Source of the DNA: Tateyamaria sp. Alg231-49
GTDB lineage: Bacteria; Pseudomonadota; Alphaproteobacteria; Rhodobacterales; Rhodobacteraceae
Length of the DNA: 64,000 bases
Direction of reading: 5' to 3'
Assembly (NCBI RefSeq): GCF_900143535.1
Contig: NZ_FRFA01000005.1
Span: forward strand, 186,001 to 250,000
Made by a program: the position numbers and the translations under genes. The notes below the pieces were generated by a model. That model was given only the letters and a program-made list of their open reading frames with translations. It was not told where the DNA came from and made no database searches. Below, one piece after another: positions 3,484-17,209 of the stretch; position 1 is the first letter of the stretch; each line of letters opens with the position of its first letter.

Positions 3484-3644
3484 ATCTGCCAAAACGCATA
3501 CAGAACTCCCCTTTGCGTCCCAATCTCACTGTCATACCTGATTGCAACAAAGGTGGCAGAGCGCTGCGTACGGGTCTGCACGGCCCTAGTGCTGTAGATG
3601 CAAAACACATATAGTCGAGACATCCATTGGGTCGGGGGATTTTG

Positions 3645-3734
3645 ATGCAACCAACTGCGTTTCAAAAAATAGCATATGCGGCTCTGATTGCGCTGATGTT
3701 CGGCGTGACCACCGGCCTGATCGGGGGGCTTTGA
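3645..3734 (+). CDS. 29-residue single-span membrane peptide
   Basis: A short frame begins at ATG 3645 and ends with TGA at 3732-3734, three bases before the XpaC-like gene. The product has a short polar N-terminus (MQPTAFQKIAY) and then one hydrophobic stretch (ALIALMFGVTTGLIGGL). A GGGGG-rich sequence lies about eight bases upstream and may act as a weak ribosome site. The tight spacing suggests translational coupling with the XpaC gene and a role as a small membrane partner of the cluster. I know of no named family for it; coding status rests on spacing and composition only. Confidence 0.45.
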   Translation: MQPTAFQKIAYAALIALMFGVTTGLIGGL

Positions 3735-3737
3735 CGC

Positions 3738-4637
3738 ATGGCCCAGCGCTTTGGTGGAAAATACAGTCCCGATGGCACCACGGATGCCCCTGCATCGCAA
3801 GACCGCAGCGCCTATCAGGGCGCGCAGGTCAATCCGGTTGGCGCACGCGCCAATATCCTGTTCGTCCCTGCGATACCCATGGTGTTTCTTGCGCTGAATG
3901 ATGGTGCCGTAAATCTGGCGCTGGCCCTTGTCGCAGCAGGCATTCTGACCCTTGCCGCCTGGCTCTTGCGCGGCGGTCTGGTTGCCGAAGCAGCCTACGT
4001 CTCGCGTAAAGTAGCACGCCGCCCAGCCATCCCGCGCAAGCTGTTTTCCTCTGTCCTGACGGGTATCGGCATTGCCATGGCAGCGTATCGGAATGAACCC
4101 GGTCTGGTTGCCCCCATCCTGTTTGGTGTCGCCGCCAGCGGTCTGCATCTGGCCGCCTTCGGGATCGACCCTTTGCAAGACAAGGGGATGGAAGGCATCG
4201 ATACATTCCAACAAGACCGCGTTGCCCGCGTCGTAGACGAGGCTGAAACCCATCTCGCCGCAATGACCGATGCGATGAAACGTGCCGAAGATCGCCAGAT
4301 GGCCCTGAAGCTCGAAAAATTCCAGGCCACTGCCTGCGACCTGATCCGCACAGTCGAAGAAGATCCGCGCGACCTGACAGCGGCGCGCAAGTATCTTGGC
4401 GTCTATCTGATGGGCGCGCGCGATGCGACGATCAAGTTTGCGGACATCTATTCTCGCACCCGCGACACTCAAGCCCGCGCCGACTACAGCGATCTGCTGG
4501 ATGATCTGAGCGACAACTTTGCCGCGCGCACCCGCAAGCTGCTGGTCGACGACCGCAGCGATCTGAACATCGAAATCGACGTGTTGCGAGACCGATTGCA
4601 ACGCGAAGGGGTACGCACCCCAACAAACGATATTTAA
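3738..4637 (+). CDS. XpaC family (5-bromo-4-chloroindolyl phosphate hydrolysis protein) membrane protein
   Basis: The protein has 299 residues. The N-terminal 30 are polar and cytoplasmic, followed by hydrophobic segments at about 37-72 and 88-130 that give a membrane anchor. The C-terminal half, from about residue 150, is helical and charged (EAETHLAAMTDAMKRAEDRQ onwards), the XpaC domain. XpaC-like genes are regularly found immediately upstream of telA in Bacillus and in roseobacters, as here, with 22 bases between them. The historical name comes from a hydrolysis phenotype and says little about function. It is probably the membrane anchor or partner of TelA in an envelope-stress module. 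Confidence 0.8.
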   Translation: MAQRFGGKYSPDGTTDAPASQDRSAYQGAQVNPVGARANILFVPAIPMVFLALNDGAVNLALALVAAGILTLAAWLLRGGLVAEAAYVSRKVARRPAIPRKLFSSVLTGIGIAMAAYRNEPGLVAPILFGVAASGLHLAAFGIDPLQDKGMEGIDTFQQDRVARVVDEAETHLAAMTDAMKRAEDRQMALKLEKFQATACDLIRTVEEDPRDLTAARKYLGVYLMGARDATIKFADIYSRTRDTQARADYSDLLDDLSDNFAARTRKLLVDDRSDLNIEIDVLRDRLQREGVRTPTNDI

Positions 4638-4659
4638 TTAAGGAACAAGGTACCCCAAC

Positions 4660-5856
4660 ATGTCTGACACCGTCCGCCAAAAGGCCGAAGCCACCCTTGC
4701 CGCAGTCGAAGAAGTGACTGCAGTTGTCCTTCCCGAACCCAAAGATGCAGGGGCCATCGTGCCACTGGCCGAGGCCGACGCGCCTGTGGGCAGCGAAATC
4801 CGCGCCCGCATGGACGAGATTGATATGGGTGATACCAATTCCATCGTCTCGTTCGGGTCTGCAGCACAAGCCGAGTTGCAGGAAATCTCTCAGGCGATGC
4901 TAACGGACGTGCGCAACAAAGATGTGGGGCCGGCAGGCGATAGCTTGCGCGGGATCGTCACCACGATCCGCGGCTTCTCGATCTCAGAACTTGATGTGCG
5001 CCGCGACCGGTCATGGTGGGAAAAGCTGATCGGACGCGCAGCACCCTTCGCCAAATTCACGGCTAAGTTTGAAACAGTCCAAGCCCAGATCGATAAGATC
5101 ACCGACAACCTGCTGGAACACGAGCACACGCTGCTCAAAGACATCAAATCCCTCGATCTGCTCTATGAAAAGACGCTCCAGTTCTATGATGAACTCGCGC
5201 TGTACATTGCCGCGGGCGAGGAAAAGATCAAAGAACTGGATGAAACCACTATCCCCGCCAAGGAAAAAGATGTCGAAGCCGCCGCCGAAGCCGACAAGGT
5301 CATGGTGGCGCAAGAACTGCGCGACCTGCGTGCCGCGCGTGACGATCTGGAACGCCGGGTGCATGACCTCAAACTGACCCGTCAGGTGACAATGCAGTCA
5401 CTGCCTTCGATCCGTCTGGTTCAGGAAAACGACAAGTCGCTTGTTACCAAAATCAACTCGACCCTCGTCAACACCGTGCCTCTCTGGGAAACCCAACTGG
5501 CCCAAGCCGTCACCATCCAGCGCAGCGCCGAAGCCGCAGCCGCTGTGCGTGACGCCAATGACCTGACGAACGAGCTTCTGACCTCAAACGCGGCCAACCT
5601 GCGTGAAAGCAACAAAGCGATCCGCACCGAAATGGATCGGGGCGTTTTCGACATCGAAGCGGTCAAAAAGGCTAATGCCGATCTGATCGGGACGATCGAG
5701 GACAGCCTCAAAATCGCCGACGAAGGCAAAGCCAAACGCGCTGCCGCCGAAGAGGACCTCAAGAAGATGGAAGCCGAATTGCGCGACACCCTGGCCTCTG
5801 CCAAGTCGCGCAAGGACGGGGTCGGCGACACGGCTGGCACGGCCGTTCCCAGCTGA
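4660..5856 (+). CDS. TelA-family toxic anion resistance protein
   Basis: At 398 residues it matches the TelA/KlaA family length. The family features are present: a central region with GDSLRGIVTTIRGFSISELD followed by WWEKLIGRAAPFAKF, then long alternating-charge helices likely to form coiled coils (about 150-260 and 310-385). There is no signal peptide or membrane span, so the protein is cytosolic or peripheral. TelA proteins were first linked to tellurite resistance, but their molecular activity is unknown. It sits between an XpaC-like membrane protein and a lipoprotein in one operon, which suggests that it works at the inner face of the membrane. Confidence 0.88.
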   Translation: MSDTVRQKAEATLAAVEEVTAVVLPEPKDAGAIVPLAEADAPVGSEIRARMDEIDMGDTNSIVSFGSAAQAELQEISQAMLTDVRNKDVGPAGDSLRGIVTTIRGFSISELDVRRDRSWWEKLIGRAAPFAKFTAKFETVQAQIDKITDNLLEHEHTLLKDIKSLDLLYEKTLQFYDELALYIAAGEEKIKELDETTIPAKEKDVEAAAEADKVMVAQELRDLRAARDDLERRVHDLKLTRQVTMQSLPSIRLVQENDKSLVTKINSTLVNTVPLWETQLAQAVTIQRSAEAAAAVRDANDLTNELLTSNAANLRESNKAIRTEMDRGVFDIEAVKKANADLIGTIEDSLKIADEGKAKRAAAEEDLKKMEAELRDTLASAKSRKDGVGDTAGTAVPS

Positions 5857-5865
5857 TCAAAACGC

Positions 5866-6819
5866 ATGACTTGGGTTCGGATCACAGGGGGAGTATGGCG
5901 TGGCCTTGCTGCGCTTACTCTTCTTGCGGCCTGTGACATGCCGCCCGCAGACTCGGCACTGAACCCACAGGCAAGCCCCGCCTCTGCCGGCCTCGCAGAC
6001 CCAATCCCGCAACGCGCCACGTCCGAGCGTAGCGCGACCCTGCGCCAATACCTCACACAAGTGCAATCAAGCCAGCTGACCTCAGGTCTGCTGCGTCAGG
6101 ATGGCGGCGGGCCGGACACGCCGTTCACGGCCGACATGCTGGCGCGCAACTTTGAACAGATCGTGTTCTTTAACGAATACGGGCGCAATGGCGCTCCGCG
6201 CGGTGGACCAAGCGATTTGCGGCGCTGGTCTGGGCCAGTGCGCATCGGGATTGCCTTTGGTCCATCTGTCCCCCCAAGCCAGCGGATGCAGGACCGCGCA
6301 GACGTGCGCGCGTTCGCGGCTCGCTTGGCACGCAGCACCGGGCACCCGGTGTCGACCGCTGGCACGCCCAATTTCATGGTGGTCTTTGCCAGCGAAGATG
6401 ACCGCGCCGAAACCTTGAACAAAATTGCCCCTCGCCTGCCTGGCGTGACCCAAGCCAATCTTGCTCCCCTGCGCGACCTGCCCGATGATGCCTATTGCGC
6501 GGTGGCCGCTTATGCCAGTGGCGCCGAACGCACCACGTACACGGCCGCCGTTGCGGTCATCCGGGCTGAAAACCCAGACCTTTTGCGACTCTCTTGCATT
6601 CACGAGGAACTGGCCCAGGGGCTGGGATTGGCCAATGACAGCCCCAATGCACGCCCTTCCATCTTTAATGATGACGATGAGTTTGCACTGCTGACCAACC
6701 ATGACGACGCCCTTCTGGGCATGCTCTATGACGCCCGCCTTGCCCCCGGCATGGCACTTGATACCGCGCGCCCGATTGTGCGCATTCTTGCCCGCGAGGC
6801 CGTCCAAGGCCCGCTCTGA
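5866..6819 (+). CDS. DUF2927 family lipoprotein
   Basis: This 317-residue protein starts nine bases after telA. The N-terminus has a basic start, a hydrophobic run and a lipobox LLAAC with Cys23, so it should be a lipid-anchored periplasmic protein. The body matches the DUF2927 type, as I recall it: residues 80-130 contain FNEYGRNGAPRGGPSDLRRW, followed by a beta-rich core and CIHEELAQGLGLANDSP near residue 245. The last motif, HEELAQGLG, resembles a degenerate metallopeptidase helix, an inference that needs structure-based comparison. Its place between telA and the SPFH gene suggests a periplasmic arm of the same membrane module. Confidence 0.8.
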   Translation: MTWVRITGGVWRGLAALTLLAACDMPPADSALNPQASPASAGLADPIPQRATSERSATLRQYLTQVQSSQLTSGLLRQDGGGPDTPFTADMLARNFEQIVFFNEYGRNGAPRGGPSDLRRWSGPVRIGIAFGPSVPPSQRMQDRADVRAFAARLARSTGHPVSTAGTPNFMVVFASEDDRAETLNKIAPRLPGVTQANLAPLRDLPDDAYCAVAAYASGAERTTYTAAVAVIRAENPDLLRLSCIHEELAQGLGLANDSPNARPSIFNDDDEFALLTNHDDALLGMLYDARLAPGMALDTARPIVRILAREAVQGPL

Positions 6820-6841
6820 TCCCGACCAAAGGAGACCCCAC

Positions 6842-7951
6842 ATGGGTATTTTCGACTTCCTCTCCGGTGAATTCATCGATGTCATCCACTGGGTGGACGA
6901 CACCCGCGACACCATGGTTTGGCGCTTCGAACGCGAAGGGCACGAAATCAAATACGGAGCCAAGCTGACAGTCCGCGAAGGGCAAGCCGCTGTGTTCGTG
7001 CACGAGGGGCAGCTGGCAGACGTCTTCACCCCTGGTCTCTACATGCTTGAAACCAACAACATGCCAATCATGACGACGTTGCAGCATTGGGATCACGGTT
7101 TCAAAAGCCCCTTCAAGTCCGAGATCTATTTCGTCAACACGACCCGCTTTAATGATCTCAAGTGGGGCACAAAAAACCCGATCATCTGTCGTGACCCAGA
7201 ATTCGGTCCGGTTCGCCTGCGTGCTTTCGGGACCTATTCGGTCAAGGTCGCGGACCCGGCCAAGTTCCTTGTTGAAATCGTCGGTACGGACGGCGAATTC
7301 ACCATGGACGAGATCAGCTTTCAAATCCGCAATATCATCGTGCAGGAAATGTCACGCTCGCTTGCCAAATCCGGCATCCCGGTTCTCGACATGGCCGCCA
7401 ACACGCGCGAGTTGGGGCAAATCGTGGCCAAGGAAATCTCGGCCCTGATCGCAGAGTATGGGCTGGTGATCCCCGAACTTTACATCGAAAACATATCGCT
7501 CCCCCCCGCCGTCGAGGCGGTGATGGACAAGCGTTCTTCGATGGGCGTGGTCGGGAACCTCAATAACTATATGCAGTTTCAGGCCGCTGAGGCGCTGGGG
7601 CGCGAAGGTGGTGGCGCAGGCGATGCGATGCAGGCCGGCCTTGGGGCTGCGATGGGTTTACAGATGGGCAACATGGCCGCCGGGCAAGGCCCTTGGGGTG
7701 CCCGGCCCTCGGCAGCTGGCAGCAACACACCGCCCCCGCCACCGGTCGAACACGTCTGGCACACCGCTGAAGGAGGCCAGACGAAGGGTCCGTTTTCCAA
7801 GGCGCGGATGGCGCGGATGGCCGCAGAAGGCGAACTCACGCGGGAGACCTATGTGTGGACTGCCGGGCAGGATGGCTGGCTTAAGGCCGAGGATGTGACC
7901 GAACTCGCACAACTCTTCACGATCCTGCCGCCCCCTCCACCGGGGGCGTGA
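6842..7951 (+). CDS. SPFH-domain (YdjI/virion-core-like) protein with C-terminal GYF_2 domain
   Basis: The 369-residue protein has an SPFH/Band 7-like domain from about residue 30 to 240 (EGQAAVFVHEGQLADVFTPG; IPVLDMAANTRELGQIV), a low-complexity Gly/Ala/Met region (about 245-295), a Pro-run linker, and a C-terminal GYF_2-type domain (about 303-355, KGPFSKARMARMAAEGELT and the GWLKAEDV end). It has no signal peptide or clear membrane span. Relatives such as Bacillus YdjI are recruited to the membrane by zinc-ribbon membrane partners, as I recall that literature. A strong AAAGGAG precedes the ATG. It ends the first half of the module; the zinc-ribbon partner is found at 14271, beyond the inserted TRAP island. 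Confidence 0.85.
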   Translation: MGIFDFLSGEFIDVIHWVDDTRDTMVWRFEREGHEIKYGAKLTVREGQAAVFVHEGQLADVFTPGLYMLETNNMPIMTTLQHWDHGFKSPFKSEIYFVNTTRFNDLKWGTKNPIICRDPEFGPVRLRAFGTYSVKVADPAKFLVEIVGTDGEFTMDEISFQIRNIIVQEMSRSLAKSGIPVLDMAANTRELGQIVAKEISALIAEYGLVIPELYIENISLPPAVEAVMDKRSSMGVVGNLNNYMQFQAAEALGREGGGAGDAMQAGLGAAMGLQMGNMAAGQGPWGARPSAAGSNTPPPPPVEHVWHTAEGGQTKGPFSKARMARMAAEGELTRETYVWTAGQDGWLKAEDVTELAQLFTILPPPPPGA

Positions 7952-7962
7952 TGGAGTTGACG

Positions 7963-9246
7963 TTACCCGCCAATCAATGAGGGGAGCGTCAGCGAAATCG
8001 CCGGAACGAAGGTGATCAACATCAGTGCGGCAAAGATGGCGAGGTAAAAGGGCCAGATTGTGCGCACGGCCTTTTCCATCGGCAACTTGCCCACGGCGCA
8101 TCCGACGAACAGACACGAGCCCACAGGCGGCGTGCACAGGCCCAGACCCAGATTGACCAGCAGGATCATCCCGAACTGGTAGGGGTCGACCCCAAGGGCG
8201 TTGGCCACAGGCAGAAAGATCGGCGTGCAGATCAGGATAAGGGCGGCCATGTCCATGATCATGCCCAAAATCAACAGGGCCACGTTGATCATCAACAGGA
8301 TCAGGATTGGATTGTCGGTCAGCCCTGTGAGGAAGTCGACCGTCAGGTTGGGCACCCGGTAAAAAGTCAGCATGTAGGCAAAGGCCCCAGCGCAGGCGAT
8401 CAGGATCATCACCATCGCCGTGGTGCGCACGGCCTGCGTTACAGCAAGGCGGAACTTGTCCACTGTGATGGAGCGATAGACCACAAGCGTGACGATGAAG
8501 GCATAGATCGCGCCAAACGCGCCGGACTCGGTGACCGTAAAGACACCCGACAATACGCCGCCCACGATGATAACGGCTGTCAGCAGACCTGGGATCGCAC
8601 CAAAGAACGCCATGACCAGTGCGGTCCAGCCCGGGAACTTCTCGGCTTTATAGCCGCGTTTCACCGCCACAAGATAGGCCGCCAGCGCCAGACACAGGCA
8701 CATCAGGATACCGGGCACGACACCGGCCAAAAACAGCTTTGAGATCGAAATGCCGCCGCCCGCCGCGATGGCAAAGATGATCATGTTATGGCTGGGCGGG
8801 ATGATAATCCCTGCGATGGAGGATGTGACGGTGACGTTTACCGCATAATCTGCATCGTACCCCTTTTCCTTCATCACTGGCACAAGGATCGAACCAAGGG
8901 CCGAAATATCCGCGATGGCCGACCCCGAAATGCCGCCAAAGAGCATCGACGAGAACACGTTGACGATGCCAAGCCCGCCGCGCACCGCGCCTACAGCGGC
9001 CGAGGCAAAGCGCACCAAACGCATCGCAATGCCGCCGTGAAACATCAACTCGCCGGCGAAGATGAAGAACGGGATCGCCATCAGGGCAAAAACATTGATG
9101 CCCGATACAATCCGCTGAAACCCGATCATCAGCGGCAGCCCTTCATACCAGAAGGCGGCGATGGCCGAGATGCCAAGCGCAAAGGCCACTGGCGTGCCGA
9201 TCACAACACACAAGGCAAAAACCCCAAGGAGTACCATTAGTCCCAT
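7963..9246 (-). CDS. dctM: TRAP transporter large permease DctM (probable uronate uptake)
   Basis: The 427-residue protein is almost entirely hydrophobic, with about 12 membrane segments typical of the DctM subunit that couples sodium to solute movement. Family motifs include FGGISGSAIADISALGSI, GIIIPPSHNMIIFA and LGLCTPPVGSCLFVG. It begins nine bases after dctQ and is expected to be cotranscribed with it and with dctP. Its 3' end is 11 bases from the convergent SPFH gene. The substrate is inferred from the KdgF-like and reductase genes sharing operator sites with this operon. Confidence 0.93.
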   Translation of the reverse strand: MGLMVLLGVFALCVVIGTPVAFALGISAIAAFWYEGLPLMIGFQRIVSGINVFALMAIPFFIFAGELMFHGGIAMRLVRFASAAVGAVRGGLGIVNVFSSMLFGGISGSAIADISALGSILVPVMKEKGYDADYAVNVTVTSSIAGIIIPPSHNMIIFAIAAGGGISISKLFLAGVVPGILMCLCLALAAYLVAVKRGYKAEKFPGWTALVMAFFGAIPGLLTAVIIVGGVLSGVFTVTESGAFGAIYAFIVTLVVYRSITVDKFRLAVTQAVRTTAMVMILIACAGAFAYMLTFYRVPNLTVDFLTGLTDNPILILLMINVALLILGMIMDMAALILICTPIFLPVANALGVDPYQFGMILLVNLGLGLCTPPVGSCLFVGCAVGKLPMEKAVRTIWPFYLAIFAALMLITFVPAISLTLPSLIGG

Positions 9247-9255
9247 ATCAACCCC

Positions 9256-9783
9256 CTATTCGATGCTGTCGCGACGCTCATCCACACCAAGGTAAAGGCG
9301 GATAAGGTGACTGACGGAAAACAGCAGGATCAACCCGCCACTGATGGTTAAAGGGAGAGAGCGCAAACCCTCGGGCAATTGGATCAGCGGGATCAGCGAA
9401 CCCCATTTGAAGATGGTGAGTTGCGCACCATACCACAGCATCAGCAGCCCAAACCCCGCCATAATCAGATCAGTGAGGACGACAAAAATGATGCGTACGC
9501 GTGTCGGCACTGCACTGCGCAGGATCGAGACAGACAGATGCGTGTTTTCATAAACACCTACGGCGGCACCGATGAAGGCGATGAACATCACAAGCAACAA
9601 TGCGACCTGTTCGACCCAAGTGGGTGTCGCGTTCAAAACGTAGCGCCCGAAAACAAGCCAGCCAAAAATCACTGTCAGCACCACCAGTGCGATCCCGGTA
9701 AGGATGCGGCAGACCCAGGCAATCGTATCGAGGGTCGTGGTCATGCGGCGGATGGCGGGGGGCAGATCACTTGCGTCATGCAT
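9256..9783 (-). CDS. dctQ: TRAP transporter small permease DctQ
   Basis: This 175-residue protein has four predicted membrane helices (about 23-45, 57-75, 97-117 and 140-160), the standard DctQ layout. The start at 9783 (MHDASDLPPAIRRM) is chosen over an in-frame ATG 36 bases upstream because CGGAGA lies about nine bases before it and because the longer version would begin inside the terminator hairpin between dctP and dctQ. It joins DctM to form the membrane part of the carrier and lies nine bases upstream of dctM. Confidence 0.88.
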   Translation of the reverse strand: MHDASDLPPAIRRMTTTLDTIAWVCRILTGIALVVLTVIFGWLVFGRYVLNATPTWVEQVALLLVMFIAFIGAAVGVYENTHLSVSILRSAVPTRVRIIFVVLTDLIMAGFGLLMLWYGAQLTIFKWGSLIPLIQLPEGLRSLPLTISGGLILLFSVSHLIRLYLGVDERRDSIE

Positions 9784-9798
9784 GGCTGTTCTCCGGTC

Positions 9799-9838
9799 AA
9801 AAAAAGCGCCCGGCCCCAAGAGATGCGGGGCCGGACGC
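9799..9838 (-). terminator. Intrinsic terminator between dctP and dctQ
   Basis: A GC-rich hairpin pairs 9806-9817 with 9827-9838 (12 pairs, one mismatch, nine-base loop). It is followed on the minus strand by seven T residues (9799-9805). It lies right after the binding-protein gene and before dctQ, so it should let the binding protein be made in excess over the permease. Confidence 0.85.
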
Positions 9839-9862
9839 CTTATTCTAATAGCAGATCCGGGC

Positions 9863-10843
9863 TTAGTCGGTGGCCTGGATCAACTCGACCAAGGGGCGCA
9901 AATCCGGGTTGGATTCAAATGCGGCCTCATAGACCGGGCCCATTGCAGCTTGGAACGGTGCCTTGTCTGCCACTTCGTTGACAACGACGCCTGCCGCTTC
10001 AACCGCTTCGCGGCTTGCAGCCTCACGTGCGGCCCACAGATCACGCTGCATCAGCGCAGATTCTTGTGCCGCTTCGGTCACTGCCGCCTGCATGTCAGCA
10101 GACAGACCCGCGAACGTGTCGGCATTGATGCAGATACACTCAGGGATGATCAGGTGCTGGGACAGCGAATAGAAGCCCGCAACCTCAAAGTGGCCGGTGG
10201 ATTCGTAGGAAGGCCAGTTGTTTTCTGCACCGTCCACAACGCCGGTTTTCAGGGCTTGGTAGACTTCGGCAAAGGCCATTGGAGAAGCGTTGCCGCCCAT
10301 TTCGTTGATCATACCGGTGAACAGGTCGTTGTTCATGACCCGCACCTTCATGCCAACAACATCGGCAGGCGTGTTGATCGCCTTTTCGCCGTTGTAGAAC
10401 GACCGGGCGCCGGCGTCATACCATGCCAGTGGCAGCAGTCCTTTTTCGGCCATGCCAGCGGCGATGGCTGCGCCACCTTCACTGTCCAGCACGCGGAACA
10501 TGTGAGGGACGTCCTTGAAGATGAACGGCAGGGATACGACGTTGGCCGCAGGCACAATCGGGCCGATGGGGCCAAGGTTGAAGTTGCCGATTTCCAGACC
10601 GCCCAGACGGACCTGCTCGACCGCGTCAGGCTGGCTGCCCAGTGTGCCGCCGTGGAACATCTGCAGCGTGATTTCGCCACCTGTCTTTTCAGCAACAAGC
10701 TCTGCGAATTTGTCCATCGCGACGGTGTTTGGATATCCGTCCACGTGGATGTTCCAACCGCGCCAGTTTTCGGCAAAAGCGGCTGTGCTAAGCACGCTGA
10801 CGGCGACAGCACCGATCAGTGATTTTGTAAGTGTGTTGAACAT
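9863..10843 (-). CDS. dctP: TRAP transporter substrate-binding protein DctP
   Basis: The start at 10843 gives a 326-residue precursor with a classical Sec signal (MFNTLTKSLIGAVAVSVLST, then AAFA before ENWRGWN) and a good GGGAGGA site. The longer frame upstream has no such features. The mature protein shows DctP-family sequence: GGTLGSQPDAVEQVRLGGLE, VVGMKVRVMNNDLFTGMINE (the Arg that clamps a ligand carboxylate is expected in this stretch) and NNWPSYESTGHFEVAGFY. DctP proteins bind carboxylate-bearing ligands in the periplasm. Together with the KdgF-like cupin and the regulator type, a uronate or deoxyuronate ligand is likely; this is inference. A GntR-type palindrome lies about 130 bases upstream. 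Confidence 0.92.
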   Translation of the reverse strand: MFNTLTKSLIGAVAVSVLSTAAFAENWRGWNIHVDGYPNTVAMDKFAELVAEKTGGEITLQMFHGGTLGSQPDAVEQVRLGGLEIGNFNLGPIGPIVPAANVVSLPFIFKDVPHMFRVLDSEGGAAIAAGMAEKGLLPLAWYDAGARSFYNGEKAINTPADVVGMKVRVMNNDLFTGMINEMGGNASPMAFAEVYQALKTGVVDGAENNWPSYESTGHFEVAGFYSLSQHLIIPECICINADTFAGLSADMQAAVTEAAQESALMQRDLWAAREAASREAVEAAGVVVNEVADKAPFQAAMGPVYEAAFESNPDLRPLVELIQATD

Positions 10844-10970
10844 AGTGTCCTCCCGGTTTGAGTTTTGAACTCTGTTTTGACCTTGGTCTTTCCATGTACG
10901 GGCAGGCAGATCCTCCGAACTGCGATGCCCTGAATTGACCTCGGTTTTCTTCCTCGCCCCCAAAAGAAGA

Positions 10971-10982
10971 CTAGTATACTAG
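10971..10982. promoter_or_regulatory. Putative GntR-family operator upstream of dctP
   Basis: This is a perfect 12-base palindrome, CTAGTATACTAG. It differs only at the outer pairs from CTGGTATACCAG and CTAGTATACCAG near 12.4 kb. FCD-type GntR regulators such as UxuR bind TGGTATACCA-like sites. It probably lets the regulator at 11572 control the TRAP operon. Confidence 0.7.
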
Positions 10983-11031
10983 ATTTGTCAACTGCGAATA
11001 TTCCCCACAAAACCGCAGAAAATGGGCCCGT

Positions 11032-11547
11032 CTAAGCAGTGCCACGCACGGGGCGATTGTTCTCAATGTTAAAGATCATGCCGTCCAGCAGCTCTTCCAA
11101 ATCAGGACGTGCCGCCGGGCCGTTGGAGATATCGACCAGCATTAACGTGCCGTCGGGCCGGATACCAAAGGCACCGGGTTCAGCAAAACGCGTAGACGTT
11201 TCTGCCTCTGACAGTGGGTCAGAAACGTACAGACCCAGCGCGCGCATCTCCAGCTCGCTCAGTCCATAGCACAGATCGAAATCCCAGCTAAACTCTGCCT
11301 TGTCCGCCTGCGCCTTCTCTGCCGTGTCCGCAGATACCACGACCACGTCCATGACCGCCTGCCACGCAGGCAGCACTGCATTCAGTTTGTTCAGGAACCG
11401 CTTGCAACGCGGACAGTGTTTGCCGCGATAGACAAAAAGCATCGTCCAGCGGTCTTTGGCATGACCAACCGAAACGGTGTCTCCGGACGTGGTGGACCAG
11501 GACATCTCATCAATGGGAGCGCCGACTCGGGGTTTGGAGTTGGTCAT
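11032..11547 (-). CDS. Peroxiredoxin-like (AhpC/TSA, redoxin) protein
   Basis: The 171-residue protein has a thioredoxin fold of the redoxin type. The segment MLFVYRGKHCPRCKRFLNKL places a CPRC pair after the first beta strand, at residues 45-48, where peroxiredoxin-like proteins carry their reactive Cys. Later strands (VVVVSADTAEKAQADK; AFGIRPDGTLMLVDIS) fit the family. It is cytosolic, with no signal peptide. The gene lies between the GntR regulator and dctP on the same strand, with an AAAGG site before ATG 11547. Its link to uronate metabolism is unclear; similar redoxins sit in other roseobacter catabolic clusters. The substrate is unknown. Confidence 0.82.
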   Translation of the reverse strand: MTNSKPRVGAPIDEMSWSTTSGDTVSVGHAKDRWTMLFVYRGKHCPRCKRFLNKLNAVLPAWQAVMDVVVVSADTAEKAQADKAEFSWDFDLCYGLSELEMRALGLYVSDPLSEAETSTRFAEPGAFGIRPDGTLMLVDISNGPAARPDLEELLDGMIFNIENNRPVRGTA

Positions 11548-11571
11548 AGCAATACCTTTAGCGTCTGTGCC

Positions 11572-12273
11572 CTACTTAGTCGGGGGTGTTTCGGGTTCGA
11601 AGTAGTTGGCGTTGGTTGCCGATATCTGCTCGATCGTTTTGTCCAGTCGGGACAAATGAAGCATGCCACACTTTATGGCCTCAGCCGCATCATGGCGTTT
11701 GATCGCTTCGGCCATACTCCGATGATCCTCAACCAGCTCCGGCAGTCGATCGACTTTTTCCAGGCTCAGTGTGCACAATCGGTCAACTTTGGATTTTTCA
11801 GCCATGATCACGTCAAATGCAAATTCCGCTTGTGCGATTCGACACAGAGTCTCGTGAAATTCATAATCCAGCTTGCCGAACGTATCATCGTCACCAGCGG
11901 CGATCATCTGATCCTGTCTGGCAAGGGCGGCGTCTAGTTCTGCGGCTCCTTGCGCGTCGCATCGCTCAGCGGCAAGGCGCAGCACTTCTTTTTCGACGGA
12001 GGCACGGACAAAGCGTGACTTGACGATCTCGCGGGATGAAAACCGTTTCACTTCGGTGGCGCGCTGGGGGCGGATCAACAAAAGGTTGCGGGTGGCAAGA
12101 CGGCTGAACGCATCACGGACCGGTTGGCGAGATACACCAAACTGTGCAGCGATGTCGGCTTCGGAAATCTTGTCGCCGGGGCGCAGCCGCAACGACAAAA
12201 TCTCATCATGGAGATAATCGAATATGTCATCCACGCTTGTGCGGCGTTCGTTGAAATTTGTCACTTGCACCAT
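11572..12273 (-). CDS. GntR family regulator, FadR/FCD subfamily
   Basis: The 233-residue protein has an N-terminal winged helix (about 12-75; GDKISEADIAAQFGVSRQPV is the recognition-helix region) and a C-terminal all-helical FCD domain (about 85-215) with the metal/ligand region KLDYEFHETLCRIAQ. FCD regulators usually sense a sugar acid or small carboxylate and are released from DNA when it is present. Two palindromes of the expected type (12407-12418 and 12427-12438) lie in the divergent region to the SDR gene and a third lies upstream of dctP, so it probably regulates both operons and perhaps itself. An AGGGGAGA site precedes the ATG. Confidence 0.9.
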   Translation of the reverse strand: MVQVTNFNERRTSVDDIFDYLHDEILSLRLRPGDKISEADIAAQFGVSRQPVRDAFSRLATRNLLLIRPQRATEVKRFSSREIVKSRFVRASVEKEVLRLAAERCDAQGAAELDAALARQDQMIAAGDDDTFGKLDYEFHETLCRIAQAEFAFDVIMAEKSKVDRLCTLSLEKVDRLPELVEDHRSMAEAIKRHDAAEAIKCGMLHLSRLDKTIEQISATNANYFEPETPPTK

Positions 12274-12406
12274 CGCGCGCTCTCCCCTTTGGGTCGTTCC
12301 ATCGCCTTTTAACGAAACGCAGGCAAAAACAACAACCTTGACCCGCTCTATGAACCCCGCCTGACACTGGCGTGCCTTTGTTGGGGATCAATATGAACAG
12401 TTCGGA

Positions 12407-12438
12407 CTGGTATACCAGTTATTTAACTAGTATACCAG
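12407..12438. promoter_or_regulatory. Tandem GntR-type operators in the regulator/SDR intergenic region
   Basis: CTGGTATACCAG (12407-12418, perfect palindrome) and CTAGTATACCAG (12427-12438, one mismatched pair) are spaced 20 bases centre to centre, about two helix turns, so two dimers could bind the same face. They lie 29 bases before the SDR start and 134 bases before the regulator start. Confidence 0.8.
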
Positions 12439-12466
12439 CCTAGACACATACAAAGAGGAACAGCAC

Positions 12467-13210
12467 ATGAAACTTGCAGGGCAAACGGCAATCATCACCG
12501 GTGGCGGGCGCGATATTGGACAAGCCGCGGCACTGAAGCTGGCCGCTGAAGGCGCACGGGTTGCGATTAACTATTTTTCCAGCAGCGAAGGTGCCGATGC
12601 TGCCGTTGAGCGCATAACGTCCGAAGGCGGGCAGGCTTTTGCGCTTAAGGGCGATCTGACCAAGCAAGAGGATGTCGATGCCCTTGTTTCCAAGACCGTG
12701 GCCGAGTTCGGCAGCATTGACGTTCTGGTCAATAATGCAGGTGGCCTGATCGCACGCAAGACGATTGCGGACATGCCGCTCGATCACTGGAACGCTGTGA
12801 TGGACTTGAACCTGACCAGCACCTTTTTGATGACCAAAACGTGCCTTGAACACATGAAAACCGGTACAATCGTGAACCTTGCCAGCCAGGCAGGTCGTGA
12901 TGGCGGCGGCCCCGGCGCCGTGGCCTACGCCACGTCCAAGGGGGCCGTAATGACCATGACCCGCGCTCTGGCCAAAGAACTTGGTCCGGACATCCGGGTC
13001 AACGCGCTGTGCCCTGGCATGATCGACACCGACTTTCACAACGTTCACACGCCGGATGCAGGTCGCCGCGGCTTTGAGGCCGCTGCCCCCGTCAAACGAC
13101 AGGGCAACACTGATGACACCGCCAATCTGATTCTGTTCCTGGCCTGTAACGACTCGGCCTTTGTCACTGGCACAAACATCGATATCAACGGCGGAATGCT
13201 GTTCTCCTGA
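12467..13210 (+). CDS. SDR-family oxidoreductase, probable deoxyuronate (DEH-type) reductase
   Basis: The 247-residue classical short-chain dehydrogenase has the cofactor motif TGGGRDIG at 11-18 (an Asp where most have Gly/Ser), NNAG at 89-92, the catalytic Ser140 in NLASQAG, and YATSK with Tyr154 and Lys158. The chain ends NGGMLF, as usual. It starts the operon with the KdgF-like cupin 21 bases downstream and tandem operators just upstream, with an AGAGGA site before the ATG. In uronate pathways an SDR reduces 4-deoxy-5-ketouronate (DEH) to 2-keto-3-deoxygluconate; the neighbouring KdgF-like gene makes that the best guess, but the specificity is not provable from sequence. Confidence 0.85.
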   Translation: MKLAGQTAIITGGGRDIGQAAALKLAAEGARVAINYFSSSEGADAAVERITSEGGQAFALKGDLTKQEDVDALVSKTVAEFGSIDVLVNNAGGLIARKTIADMPLDHWNAVMDLNLTSTFLMTKTCLEHMKTGTIVNLASQAGRDGGGPGAVAYATSKGAVMTMTRALAKELGPDIRVNALCPGMIDTDFHNVHTPDAGRRGFEAAAPVKRQGNTDDTANLILFLACNDSAFVTGTNIDINGGMLFS

Positions 13211-13231
13211 CCTACCGGAAAGGTTTCATAC

Positions 13232-13543
13232 ATGTCTGATTTTCCAATCGTCTCTACGGGCGAAAACGTGTCCCGACAGGTCCTGTCAGACCATCCAGAA
13301 CTGATGGTCGTCGTCTTTCGGTTTGATGCAGCGGGGGCCGAAGGAGCGCTGCACAATCACCCGCATGTCCAATCTACCTATGTAGAAAGCGGGCGGTTCC
13401 GGTTCACTTTGGGTGAAGAAACACGCGAGGTAGGCCCGGGCGACAGCTTTGTCGTGCCTTCGGATCAAACCCACGGGTGCGTATGCTTGGAACCGGGCCA
13501 GTTGGTGGATTGCTTTACCCCACGCCGCGACGACTTTCTCTGA
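13232..13543 (+). CDS. kdgF: KdgF-like cupin (unsaturated-uronate linearisation)
   Basis: This 103-residue single-domain cupin resembles KdgF, which opens 4,5-unsaturated uronates from pectin or alginate to the linear 5-keto form. Metal ligands fit the pattern HxHxxxQ plus a late His: His41, His43, Gln47 and His81. The end DCFTPRRDDF puts Asp93, Phe95 and Arg99 at the same spacing as the three active-site residues reported for Yersinia KdgF (Asp102, Phe104, Arg108, as I recall). The gene follows the SDR gene in one operon. Small cupins are diverse, so the call rests on the His/Gln and Asp-Phe-Arg patterns combined with the regulator and transporter context. Confidence 0.75.
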   Translation: MSDFPIVSTGENVSRQVLSDHPELMVVVFRFDAAGAEGALHNHPHVQSTYVESGRFRFTLGEETREVGPGDSFVVPSDQTHGCVCLEPGQLVDCFTPRRDDFL

Positions 13544-13565
13544 GCGTGCCGGATTTACACTCCGC

Positions 13566-13603
13566 ATGCCGGGCAGGACGCGCATAATCGCCCTGCCCGG
13601 CAT
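13566..13603 (+). terminator. Hairpin terminator after the kdgF-like gene
   Basis: A perfect 12-pair stem (13566-13577 with 13592-13603, core GCCGGGCAGG/CCTGCCCGGC) with a 14-base loop lies 23 bases after the cupin stop. The tract after it is only moderately T-rich, so termination may be partial. Confidence 0.6.
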
Positions 13604-13860
13604 TCGTTTGAGGGAACGGGCGCGGCGATCTTGACACGCGCGCACCCATACCACTCTTCCTTGGGTGACTTTTCTGCACCCCAGCCTATTTCCCGCGTGT
13701 ACCCGGCATACGGCCATCAAGTGGCTGCACAAGTACTTTTTAGCTGTACGCAGATCAGAGCGACGGCCATTCATTATGGCCATGGATGCCTGACCCGGCT
13801 ACACCTGAAGAAACAGACTCGACGCGCCCGATACGGCCACTTCGCAAAGGACGCAAACCC
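13604..13860. other. Intergenic stretch at the right edge of the uronate island
   Basis: I find no convincing gene here. An in-frame ATG at 13786 could lengthen the following membrane protein by 25 residues, but it lacks a ribosome site. No transposase, tRNA end or direct repeat that would mark an insertion boundary is evident by eye. Confidence 0.4.
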
Positions 13861-14274
13861 ATGCGCCGCAATGCCACAATCACACTCCACTGGCTGAACT
13901 TTGCGCTGGTCATTTTGCTGGTGGCAGGCGGCCTAGTCCCGTTCCTGGTATGGGCCTTCGCGCTCAGTGGACTTGCCATCTGGGCGATTGAGATCGTGCG
14001 CGGCATGACGAGCGGTCCCGGCCTCAAGCTTCAGGGCGTATTGCGCGCTGCTCACCCGTGGCTGAGTTTGGGAATGTACCTAGGCGCGATAGCCGCAATC
14101 ACCATATGGGTTCTGTTGGGCGGTAACTGGGGCGGGCCGCGTCTTTTCGAACTCTATTTCTTTATGCTCTCCGCCTTGTCTCTGCTTGCCATCTTCCACC
14201 TGTGGCGGCACACGGCGCTGCGTGGCGAAAACCTGCGTCGGATCACACCCACAACACTGCATTGCATGCTATGA
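13861..14274 (+). CDS. Cytochrome b561-like four-helix membrane protein
   Basis: From ATG 13861 (AAAGGA about nine bases upstream) the protein is 137 residues with four hydrophobic helices (about 8-25, 28-47, 68-90 and 98-116). Histidines in LHWLNF, AAHPWLS and IFHLWRH sit at helix ends as in b561-type di-haem proteins, so haem binding is possible but unproven. An alternative start at 13786 would add a Pro/Arg-rich N-terminus. The stop overlaps the ATG of the zinc-ribbon gene (ATGA at 14271), so the two are translationally coupled. I place it in the same module as the SPFH, TelA and XpaC genes. Confidence 0.7.
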   Translation: MRRNATITLHWLNFALVILLVAGGLVPFLVWAFALSGLAIWAIEIVRGMTSGPGLKLQGVLRAAHPWLSLGMYLGAIAAITIWVLLGGNWGGPRLFELYFFMLSALSLLAIFHLWRHTALRGENLRRITPTTLHCML

Positions 14275-15392
14275 CCGACCTGCCAGACCTTTCCAACGCG
14301 ACACCACCCGCCGATCATCGGTTCCCCTGCGACAATTGCGGGGCCGATTTCCGTTTTGACCCCGCCGCTGGTACTCTGACCTGCGATCACTGCGGTAACA
14401 CCAGCACCATCGAAGGAACGCGCGACGCCGCACCGACGGCGATCCACGAACTTGATTACCGCGCGGCCCTGAACGCGAACTTGCCCGACACGGAAATCGA
14501 AGAAACTCGCGTCTCCAAATGCCCCAACTGCGCAGCGCAAGTTGAATTTGATGCCAACATCCACGCAGCCGAATGTCCGTTCTGTGCCACACCCGTGGTC
14601 ACCGACACAGGCGCGCACCGCCACATAAAGCCACGCGGCGTCCTGCCCTTTGCAATGAGCGAACCAAACGCCCGCAAGGCGATGACCGACTGGCTCGGCC
14701 GCCTGTGGTTTGCGCCAAACGGGCTAAAAGACTATGCGCGCAAGGGTCGGACGATGCAGGGCATTTACGTTCCGTACTGGACCTTCGATGCAGACACGCG
14801 CAGCGCCTATGCTGGCGAGCGCGGCACCGTCTACTATGAAACCCAGACAGTCGTACGGGACGGCAAGCGCAGTCAGGTGCGCGTGGCCAAGGTCCGCTGG
14901 CAGCGAACGCGGGGCAAAGTCGCGCGGTTCTTTGACGACGTGCTTGTGCTTGCCTCCACCTCTCTTCCTAAGCATTTCACCGACGCGCTGGAACCATGGG
15001 ATCTGAGCGCGCTGCAACCCTACGCCCCCGAATTCCTCGCGGGTTTCCGGGCGGAAGGCTATTCAGTAGAACTGGATGAGGGATTTGCCGAGGCACGCGT
15101 GCGGATGGACAATATCATTGCCCGCGACATCCGCTTTGACATCGGTGGGGACCGCCAGCGCATTCATTCGGTCGATACCAAAATCGGGGAGGTCACGTTC
15201 AAACATATCCTGCTTCCCGTTTGGCTTGCCGCCTACAAATACCGGGGCAAAACCTATCGATTTGTGGTGAACGGGCGCACAGGCCGAGTACAGGGCGAGC
15301 GGCCCTACTCGACCGGTAAAATCCTGCTTGCTGTTCTCGTCGGGGCGCTTGTAGCCGGGGCCATCGGCTTTTCCATGGCGATGCAACAATGA
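14271..15392 (+). CDS. Double zinc-ribbon (TFIIB-like) membrane-anchored protein, YdjG-like
   Basis: The 373-residue protein has two zinc ribbons: Cys20, Cys23, Cys38, Cys41 and Cys84, Cys87, Cys102, Cys105. A beta-rich middle domain follows (YVPYWTFDADTRSAYAGERG and the region to about 330), then one C-terminal membrane helix (KILLAVLVGALVAGAIGFSM). Databases often label such proteins as primosomal N' helicase-like, but no helicase motifs are present. In Bacillus the zinc-ribbon membrane protein YdjG works with the SPFH protein YdjI, by my recollection, which supports placing this gene with the SPFH gene at 6842. It overlaps its neighbours on both sides by four bases. Confidence 0.82.
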   Translation: MTDLPDLSNATPPADHRFPCDNCGADFRFDPAAGTLTCDHCGNTSTIEGTRDAAPTAIHELDYRAALNANLPDTEIEETRVSKCPNCAAQVEFDANIHAAECPFCATPVVTDTGAHRHIKPRGVLPFAMSEPNARKAMTDWLGRLWFAPNGLKDYARKGRTMQGIYVPYWTFDADTRSAYAGERGTVYYETQTVVRDGKRSQVRVAKVRWQRTRGKVARFFDDVLVLASTSLPKHFTDALEPWDLSALQPYAPEFLAGFRAEGYSVELDEGFAEARVRMDNIIARDIRFDIGGDRQRIHSVDTKIGEVTFKHILLPVWLAAYKYRGKTYRFVVNGRTGRVQGERPYSTGKILLAVLVGALVAGAIGFSMAMQQ

Positions 15393-16063
15393 ACGACTAC
15401 GACACCTTGCTGGACCTGTTGCAAGCGCGCTTTTCCTGCCGGGCGTTCCTGTCGGCCCCCGTACCTCAGGACGACATCGCCAAAATCGTTGCCGCGGCAC
15501 GCCACGTCCCAAGTTGGTGCAACGCTCAGCCGTGGCAGTTGATCATTACGCAAGGGGCCGCAACAGACACTTTCCGCACGGCACTTTTTGAAACCGCCAG
15601 CAAAACGCCTCCATCGCCCGATCTTCCATGGCCTGAAGGCTACCCCGGCATCTATGGGGACAGGCGACGGGCTTGCGGGTTCCAGCTTTATGAGGCTGTG
15701 GGGATAGAAAAAGGCGACCGGGCGGCATCAGGCGCTCAAATGATGGAGAACTACAACCTCTTCGGCGCACCCCACGTGGCGATCGTGACGGCGCCGCGTG
15801 CCCTTGGCCCTTACGGGGCAATGGACACCGGCGGCTTTGTCACCGCCTTCTGCCTTGCGGCACAATCGCTGGGGGTTGCCACCATCCCCCAAGCGGCCAT
15901 CGCCGCACAGGCCCCCTTTGTGCGCGACCACTTCAACGTCCCAGAGGACAAGATGATCCTCTGCGCCATCTCATTTGGCTATGCGGACCCAGACCATCCC
16001 GCCAACGGCTTCCGCACAGAACGGGCTGAGCTTGATGACATCATCGATTGGCGCAACACATGA
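15389..16063 (+). CDS. Nitroreductase-family flavoprotein
   Basis: This 224-residue protein has the nitroreductase fold signatures: [20 protein letters not shown] at the N-terminus for FMN phosphate contacts (Arg/Ser), [18 protein letters not shown], and a C-terminal [20 protein letters not shown] flavin-binding region. These FMN enzymes reduce nitro-compounds, quinones or enones with NAD(P)H; the physiological substrate is not evident. It overlaps the zinc-ribbon gene (ATGA) at its start and the dtd gene at its end, so it belongs to the same transcript. Confidence 0.88.
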
Positions 16064-16675: not shown

Positions 16676-17209
16676 GTGGCCAAACTTACATCTGAAATGC
16701 GGATTGCTTTCCAATGCCTTGGGGTTTGTCCCGGCGCAGATCAAAGGGCAATCCGATCCGCGTGGAAAAAGATGGTCCGCACGTATCACCCGGACAAATA
16801 CAAGAACGACAAGGCAGAAGGAAACCGGCGTCTGGCCGAATTGAATGCCGCCTTTGATCTGGTCTGTGACTGGTCACCCGAGGGGGATGAGACGATCGAT
16901 CACGCAGCGCAAAACCGCAACTCAGCCTATCAAGCGGCGCAGTCACGCAAAGCTGCCACCGAATACGCCGCCGTCCAACGCAAGAAACAGACCAGCCTCA
17001 AGGCACAGGCACGTCACCAGCAGCGTCTGGACGAAGCCGCCGCGCGCAAACGAGCGTCCGAGCTGGATCGCGAAGAGGCATTGAGACGTGCGACCGCACA
17101 ATCCGCCAAAGACGCGAACAGGTCACAAACAAGGCCAAAAGATAAATTCCTTGCTGCTTTGAACCAACTGACAACCCGGCCCACCAATCGGTTTTCATTT
17201 TCGCTTTAA
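16676..17209 (+). CDS. J-domain protein with coiled-coil tail
   Basis: Translation probably begins at GTG 16676. The N-terminal region (to about residue 70) is a J domain with the hallmark YHPDKYK, in which HPD is at residues 38-40, needed to stimulate DnaK ATPase. The remainder is charged and Ala/Arg/Gln-rich helix (about 75-155), likely a coiled coil, with no zinc-finger or C-terminal substrate domain of true DnaJ. It is a specialised DnaK co-chaperone of unknown client. A small hairpin (ATGTGCC at 16627-16633 with GGCACAT at 16640-16646) lies 30 bases upstream; no strong ribosome site is seen. Confidence 0.75.
   Translation: MAKLTSEMRIAFQCLGVCPGADQRAIRSAWKKMVRTYHPDKYKNDKAEGNRRLAELNAAFDLVCDWSPEGDETIDHAAQNRNSAYQAAQSRKAATEYAAVQRKKQTSLKAQARHQQRLDEAAARKRASELDREEALRRATAQSAKDANRSQTRPKDKFLAALNQLTTRPTNRFSFSL

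Follow-up and report, generated by a model that had tools for sequence, protein, structure and literature searches.

The closest described counterparts of the locus reported here are two gene sets in Bacillus. Passages of one study (PMC8581546) state that YdjI, an SPFH protein, is required for PspA at the membrane, with YdjG and YdjH as the anchors of the complex, and a table of the sigmaW regulon contains both pspA-ydjGHI and xpaC-yaaN, in which yaaN encodes TelA (PMC3498285). In Lactococcus lactis, a transcriptome table on membrane-protein overproduction gives raised values for an XpaC-like gene (10.3) and telA1 (3.44) (PMC3139573), and passages of a second paper place telA among the CesSR-regulon genes raised on protein overproduction (PMC3164122). 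Here, we describe a module in Tateyamaria sp. Alg231-49 in which an XpaC-TelA pair and a pair made of an SPFH protein and a double zinc-ribbon protein (ZnR) belong to one gene set. The pairs that are controlled together in Bacillus (xpaC-yaaN and ydjG/ydjI) are a single operon in this family, the Rhodobacteraceae (f1). The window, meaning the whole stretch of 64,000 nucleotides analyzed, corresponds to positions 186001-250000 of contig C17 in this genome (G000), and coordinates below are window positions unless a contig or locus is named (G, C, L, and f numbers are our handles for genomes, contigs, loci, and families).

The first block of the module lies on the forward strand and begins with a predicted single-helix membrane microprotein of 29 amino acids (3645..3734), recognized as an open reading frame conserved in relatives. 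It is followed after 3 bp by XpaC (3738..4637; PF10112, 90.8 bits against a cut-off of 29.8), with hydrophobic stretches at 34-77 and 123-141, and after another 22 bp by TelA (4660..5856; PF05816, 354.7 bits against a cut-off of 30), which has no hydrophobic stretch and is modeled with long helices. A DUF2927 protein (5866..6819; PF11150, 200.5 bits), by eye a lipoprotein with the motif LAAC and a conserved Cys23, starts 9 bp after TelA. The last gene of the block, 22 bp further on, encodes an SPFH protein (6842..7951) with a Band_7_1 domain (PF13421, 335.7 bits), a C-terminal GYF_2 domain (PF14237, 70.3 bits), a proline-rich linker and tail, and no hydrophobic stretch. The second block, on the same strand, comprises a b561-like membrane protein with three hydrophobic stretches and conserved His residues, named from these sequence features (13786..14274); ZnR (14271..15392); and an accessory nitroreductase-family gene assigned by Pfam (15389..16063). 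Its genes overlap at 14271-14274 and at 15389-15392. The two zinc ribbons of ZnR each have the form CxxC...CxxC (C20/C23/C38/C41 and C84/C87/C102/C105) and are invariant across 53 rows, and a single C-terminal hydrophobic stretch (residues 351-369) would serve as its transmembrane anchor. The initial annotation had placed the peptide, XpaC, TelA, lipoprotein, SPFH/GYF, b561-like, and zinc-ribbon genes on one strand with tight spacing inside two blocks, and we find all of them on the forward strand in that arrangement.

The resemblance to the Bacillus systems is partial. Like B. subtilis pspA-ydjGHI, the window carries a PF13421-type SPFH protein without a membrane helix beside a double-ribbon protein with a single transmembrane segment, so the likeness to YdjI and YdjG already drawn from the sequence holds on the SPFH side. 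The middle domain of ZnR weakly resembles YpeB, and a YpeB-related domain is reported for YdjG in a published passage, a likeness that comes from separate domain matches and not from a direct alignment of the two proteins; in our Pfam scan, which covered ten window proteins around the module, the ribbon model alone scored above cut-off in ZnR. In contrast to the B. subtilis operon, the row contains XpaC-TelA in place of PspA and YdjH (neither PF04012 nor the TPM family of YdjH matched any of the ten proteins scanned), and its SPFH protein has a GYF domain. Bacillus xpaC-yaaN, which shares the sigmaW table with pspA-ydjGHI, has the same adjacency with XpaC first. There it is a separate transcription unit, whereas the window pair is joined to SPFH-ZnR, a lipoprotein, a b561-like protein, and a microprotein. 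The L. lactis pair shares the XpaC-TelA composition and the response to overproduction, but it is under a Gram-positive regulator and the passages on it do not mention SPFH-ZnR.

To follow the gene order, we used 80 named loci, which rank highest among the 305 confirmed in a search with TelA (TelA identity 81-94%) and the nearest of which belong to Tateyamaria and other Roseobacters. XpaC is present in all 80, DUF2927 in 78, SPFH in 77, ZnR in 71, the nitroreductase in 49, and the b561-like gene in 29; the flanking genes TadA and RluB are each present in 67. All 71 loci with the five genes XpaC, TelA, DUF2927, SPFH, and ZnR keep them in this order and on one strand, and because of this recurrence we regard the gene set as beyond chance. 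Six of the nine loci without ZnR end before the SPFH gene or within 1.9 kb of it, while the other three (L011, L037, and L051) extend more than 7 kb beyond it. The SPFH-ZnR gap has a median of 480 bp over the 71 loci; it is below 150 bp in 24 and above 1,500 bp in 11, a distribution which indicates that this spot often receives other genes. In the window, the SPFH and b561-like genes are separated by 5.8 kb of other genes (7963..13543), named by reading the sequence: a TRAP transporter, a peroxiredoxin-like gene, and GntR on the reverse strand, and an SDR and a cupin gene on the forward strand. They resemble a cluster of catabolic genes that was inserted into the operon. No relatives of DctP, DctQ, the peroxiredoxin-like protein, GntR, or the cupin protein were found in the 80 loci at an E value of ≤1e-5; DctM has a relative in L034, outside the SPFH-ZnR gap, and several loci contain SDR relatives, all outside the SPFH-ZnR interval. 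No convincing flanking repeats were seen at the borders of the cluster. Judged from these sequence comparisons, the two blocks are one operon, and the TRAP/GntR/cupin cluster is an insertion in Tateyamaria sp. Alg231-49.

The microprotein heads the operon in nearly all close relatives. Homologs of 22 to 31 amino acids with the pattern QK-(aromatic)-LL...GG lie upstream of XpaC in 79 of the 80 loci (weak matches in L030, L032, L033, and L079), and the eightieth locus is cut at XpaC. The stop codon falls between -4 and +5 bp of the XpaC start in 71 loci, and in the Tateyamaria loci L008, L009, L012, and L046 the gene lies 0.2 to 0.7 kb further upstream. Among 33 equal-length sequences, pN/pS was 0.37 in frame versus 1.22 and 1.76 in the shifted frames, and by this measure the microprotein is conserved under purifying selection. 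Neither Pfam nor NCBIfam gave a match above cut-off for it. About 50 to 110 bp (median, 59 bp) before its gene lies a conserved two-box element, with the form CCCCTAG-N18-CCTAAGTT in many relatives and CCTAG-N18-CATATAGT at 3585..3615 on the forward strand of the window. The core pattern CTAG-N20-TA occurs within 140 bp upstream of the microprotein gene in 61 of 78 sequences and is missing from the other 17. Among 366 stretches that precede RluB, TelA, DUF2927, SPFH, and ZnR in these loci, none contained it; 29 of 3,900 random windows did, the site itself possibly among them. We consider the element a likely promoter of the operon. A stricter pattern, CCTAGN18CNTAWRKT, matched the genome once, at 3585-3615, and no wider regulon is apparent at this stringency; since the backwards control matched seven times, the lone match is unsurprising in itself. 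With one mismatch allowed, a second match in the window fell inside the b561-like gene, with 0.30 expected.

To assess co-inheritance, we searched a family sample of 61 genomes, one per genus, with the TelA and ZnR profiles. TelA was found in 56 genomes and ZnR in the identical 56, and both were absent from G339, G349, G350, G363, and G376. If absences were random, the chance of this coincidence would be 1.7e-7, in a calculation that ignores kinship. The distance between the two genes was 2,153 to 4,519 bp, on one strand, in 50 of the 56 genomes, 8,490 bp in the window genome, and 38.5 kb in G343; in the remaining four, they lie on separate contigs. Ten further family genomes gave a concordant result: TelA is present in all nine with ZnR (one of them, G290, already among the 61), and G323 lacks both. 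The co-occurrence that the initial annotation had proposed surveying is found both in the order of neighboring genes and across the sampled genera of the family.

Beyond the family, we examined 144 Alphaproteobacteria, in which the lines for strong matches (SPFH, 240 bits; ZnR, 300 bits) were chosen after the scores were known. TelA was above cut-off in 13 genomes, ZnR exceeded 300 bits in 7, and Band_7_1 exceeded 240 bits in 8; at an E value of ≤0.001, the counts were 14 for TelA, 8 for ZnR, and 51 for Band_7_1, 20 of these above its own cut-off. TelA was present in all seven strong-ZnR genomes (hypergeometric P = 7.8e-9) and all eight strong-SPFH genomes (P = 3.4e-10), three of which come from one family. 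A contiguous XpaC-TelA-SPFH-ZnR row occurs in G046, G100, and G112, which belong to three families (f46, f100, and f112). In these loci, the profiles built from close relatives did not find TadA, RluB, DUF2927, the b561-like protein, or the microprotein. This carries limited weight for DUF2927, the b561-like protein, the microprotein, and the flanks, because the close-relative TelA profile missed, or gave low scores to, TelAs of f11 that Pfam detects. The TelAs of the module form one clade of 24 of 31 tree rows with support of 99/99, in a tree that took 11 of the 80 named loci and in which some of the nonmodule rows are long-branched. Outside the class, ten genomes had a ZnR match, with SPFH adjoining ZnR in nine (weakly in G226) and the contig of G168 ending at that point. 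No XpaC-TelA pair stands alongside in these ten genomes. The Pseudomonadota among such loci (f132, f135, f136, and f160) share adjacent SPFH and ZnR homologs with the window but differ in lacking XpaC-TelA beside them, and the SPFH-ZnR pair alone is commoner across taxa than the full module.

Our preferred reading, to which we give about an even chance, is that the module is a single operon of Alphaproteobacteria that encodes a platform for protecting the membrane, in which ZnR and SPFH recruit TelA and XpaC ties TelA to the membrane. Gene content, order, linkage, and shared inheritance are shown by the data above, and the complex and its function are inferred. By analogy with YdjG/YdjI in Bacillus, the C-terminally anchored ZnR and the soluble SPFH protein would assemble into an oligomeric scaffold at the membrane, facing the cytosol. 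GYF domains bind proline-rich peptides, and that of the SPFH protein may bind the proline-rich tails of neighboring subunits; the protein's own proline-rich linker and tail would allow such subunit-to-subunit links. At sites of membrane strain or damage, the scaffold would gather the long-helix protein TelA, which XpaC and the microprotein would tie to the bilayer. Two additions seen in this family only, the lipoprotein (DUF2927) and the b561-like protein, could signal the state of the periplasm or the redox state, and the output would be protection against membrane-disturbing stress. TelA would act as a separate effector beside PspA and not as its substitute. By its membership the module is not a Psp system, although it is perhaps like one in its action.

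Several points weigh against this reading. The 80 loci compared are closely related to one another. The five joint absences in the family sample may amount to few events, and the probability attached to them ignores relatedness. ZnR lies far from TelA in G293 and G308. In 7 of the 13 class-sample genomes with TelA (G003, G010, G034, G052, G125, G128, and G142), no SPFH-ZnR pair stands beside it, and TelA is absent from 8 of the 10 outside-class genomes with a ZnR match, the other two carrying it elsewhere. Confidence in the TelA model is low (mean pLDDT, 68), and no PDB fold matched it at an E value of ≤0.001. The seven genomes imply that TelA-XpaC works without the SPFH-ZnR pair elsewhere, and the eight that SPFH-ZnR works without TelA; in G128 the XpaC-TelA and SPFH-ZnR pairs are on different contigs, and G010 has a strong SPFH match elsewhere without a ZnR match. 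The occurrence of each pair alone would suit a view in which they are functionally independent neighbors, kept adjacent by inherited synteny, as would the close kinship of the 80 loci, most of which likewise retain TadA and RluB as flanks. However, f46, f100, and f112 have the four genes in an unbroken row, and these flanks were not found there; TelA and ZnR are present and absent jointly in the 61 genomes; both are retained where they are apart (G343, G293, and G308); and the module TelAs form one clade. We consider independence of the pairs unlikely.

The other alternatives concern what the module does. TelA could take the place of PspA as the membrane-remodeling effector of a Psp-like system, as the initial annotation proposed on the ground that no PspA is present. 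The SPFH and double-ribbon partners match those in pspA-ydjGHI, long helices are predicted for TelA (128-207 and 210-326), and PF04012 is absent from five of the seven class-sample genomes with SPFH-ZnR. The absence of PspA holds for the gene block but not for the genome, which encodes a PF04012 protein on a contig apart from the module (C23:326362, 57 bits), and G131 has PspA as well. PF04012 was above cut-off in 11 of the 61 family genomes, all among the 56 with TelA, and in the class sample it occurs in 2 of 7 SPFH-ZnR genomes versus 22 of 137 others (Fisher P = 0.33), so PspA shows no avoidance of the module, and TelA as a stand-in for an absent PspA is not supported. A profile comparison of TelA with the PspA of its own genome gave a probability of 14%, and we found no homology between them; the substitution proposed earlier is improbable. 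About as unlikely is an operon for resistance to metals or oxyanions (tellurite), in which the zinc ribbons and the nitroreductase would serve metal or redox chemistry. It would fit the name of the PF05816 family and the nitroreductase gene that overlaps ZnR in the window and recurs in 49 of the 80 loci, but a resistance gene would be sporadic, whereas TelA is in nearly all sampled genera, and the expression links in the published passages are to envelope or overproduction stress. The rise of telA and an XpaC-like gene on protein overproduction in the L. lactis passages could also point to a protein-quality or secretion platform, with SPFH-ZnR and TelA/XpaC handling misfolded membrane proteins and not lipid damage. 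However, no protease is among the ten proteins scanned in the window, and the DnaJ-domain gene at 16676 recurs in none of the 80 loci; we regard this platform as quite improbable.

In structure searches, PspA, Vipp1, and ESCRT-III chains were not among the 50 rows listed for TelA by Foldseek or by VIA, a result that excludes nothing. Against solved structures, TelA had 51 matches at E values of 0.014 to 0.1, mostly cytochrome b562 fusion chains that are helical look-alikes; the match of the SPFH protein was limited to its GYF domain (7z3c, E = 0.0024); XpaC had two matches over a 20-residue stretch; and ZnR had none, nor any Foldseek match at an E value of ≤0.001. The PspA locus of the window genome (L003:898-5347, on C23) encodes a TetR regulator, PspA, a 95-amino-acid membrane protein, and a divergent 358-amino-acid coiled-coil protein without a family, beside proteins of 102 and 372 amino acids. 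The coiled-coil protein looked TelA-like by eye and was rejected at a comparison probability of 0.3%.

The b561-like protein of the window, so called in the initial annotation, is a membrane protein, but it matched no Pfam family at an E value of ≤1, and PF01292 (cytochrome b561) was accordingly unmatched; its direct relative in L012, the only one scanned, also had no Pfam match. Other b561-like proteins in the SPFH-ZnR gap of relatives (two in L016 and one each in L005, L010, and L050) all scored above the PF01292 cut-off (5 of 5). Tandem b561 genes occupy this gap at L016:16102-17678, L005:16239-17352, L010:15187-16140, and L050:14705-16070, and in L046 by profile alone. In G293 (L117) and G308 (L119), the b561-like gene and ZnR lie together near a DTD gene, with TelA elsewhere in the genome. 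The DUF2927 proteins keep the block C-x-HEE-x-AQG-x-GL-x-ND-x-P-x-ARPSIFNDDDEFA over 79 rows, which by eye resembles a worn zinc-peptidase site. Several genera encode another XpaC-like protein ahead of XpaC (L005:7945-8820, L016:7139-8002, L017:8069-8908, and L020:7929-8873; 56 to 166 bits to the XpaC profile). The window genome has a second, divergent zinc-ribbon protein on C15 (L102:8931-10291; 191 bits to the ZnR profile), whose gene overlaps that of a 105-amino-acid membrane protein, and second copies also occur in G328, G336, G340, and G344. The ZnR frame has an inner TAG in G231 (L113) and is split into two frames in G338 (C1:474096-475177), reflecting gene decay or sequencing errors.

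TelA reportedly features in a 2012 comparative study of Ter-dependent stress systems, and Listeria TelA and nisin are said, by title, to be the subject of one paper. A literature search over titles and the starts of abstracts, covering few subscription papers, returned none linking TelA or XpaC with SPFH or DUF2927, and DUF2927 itself drew none. The two papers containing both strings "tela" and "spfh" are, by title, on Theileria and a microalga, and "TelA" does not occur in the main texts of PMC9239133, PMC11237479, PMC8581546, and PMC10936438.

We view the module as a variant of the SPFH-zinc-ribbon stress systems in which TelA-XpaC is the added half, made of little-studied genes that are near-universal in the sampled family. 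A bolder form of the membrane-protection reading, which we put forward tentatively and hold to be rather doubtful, is that TelA-XpaC is the effector half of a PspA-independent membrane-repair machine: SPFH-ZnR would load TelA, the microprotein and XpaC would dock it, the lipoprotein and the heme protein would signal, and expression would run from a promoter element unique in the genome at the stringency searched. For the conserved microprotein of the operon, neither of the two libraries searched offers a family model. Although TelA and XpaC are widespread, their activity has long been puzzling; gene order and joint presence and absence now tie them to the SPFH-ZnR pair. In Bacillus, the counterparts of this pair, YdjI and YdjG, bring PspA to the membrane, and a concrete question follows for TelA, namely, whether its arrival there depends on SPFH and ZnR. 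The family that carries the module includes tractable marine model strains.

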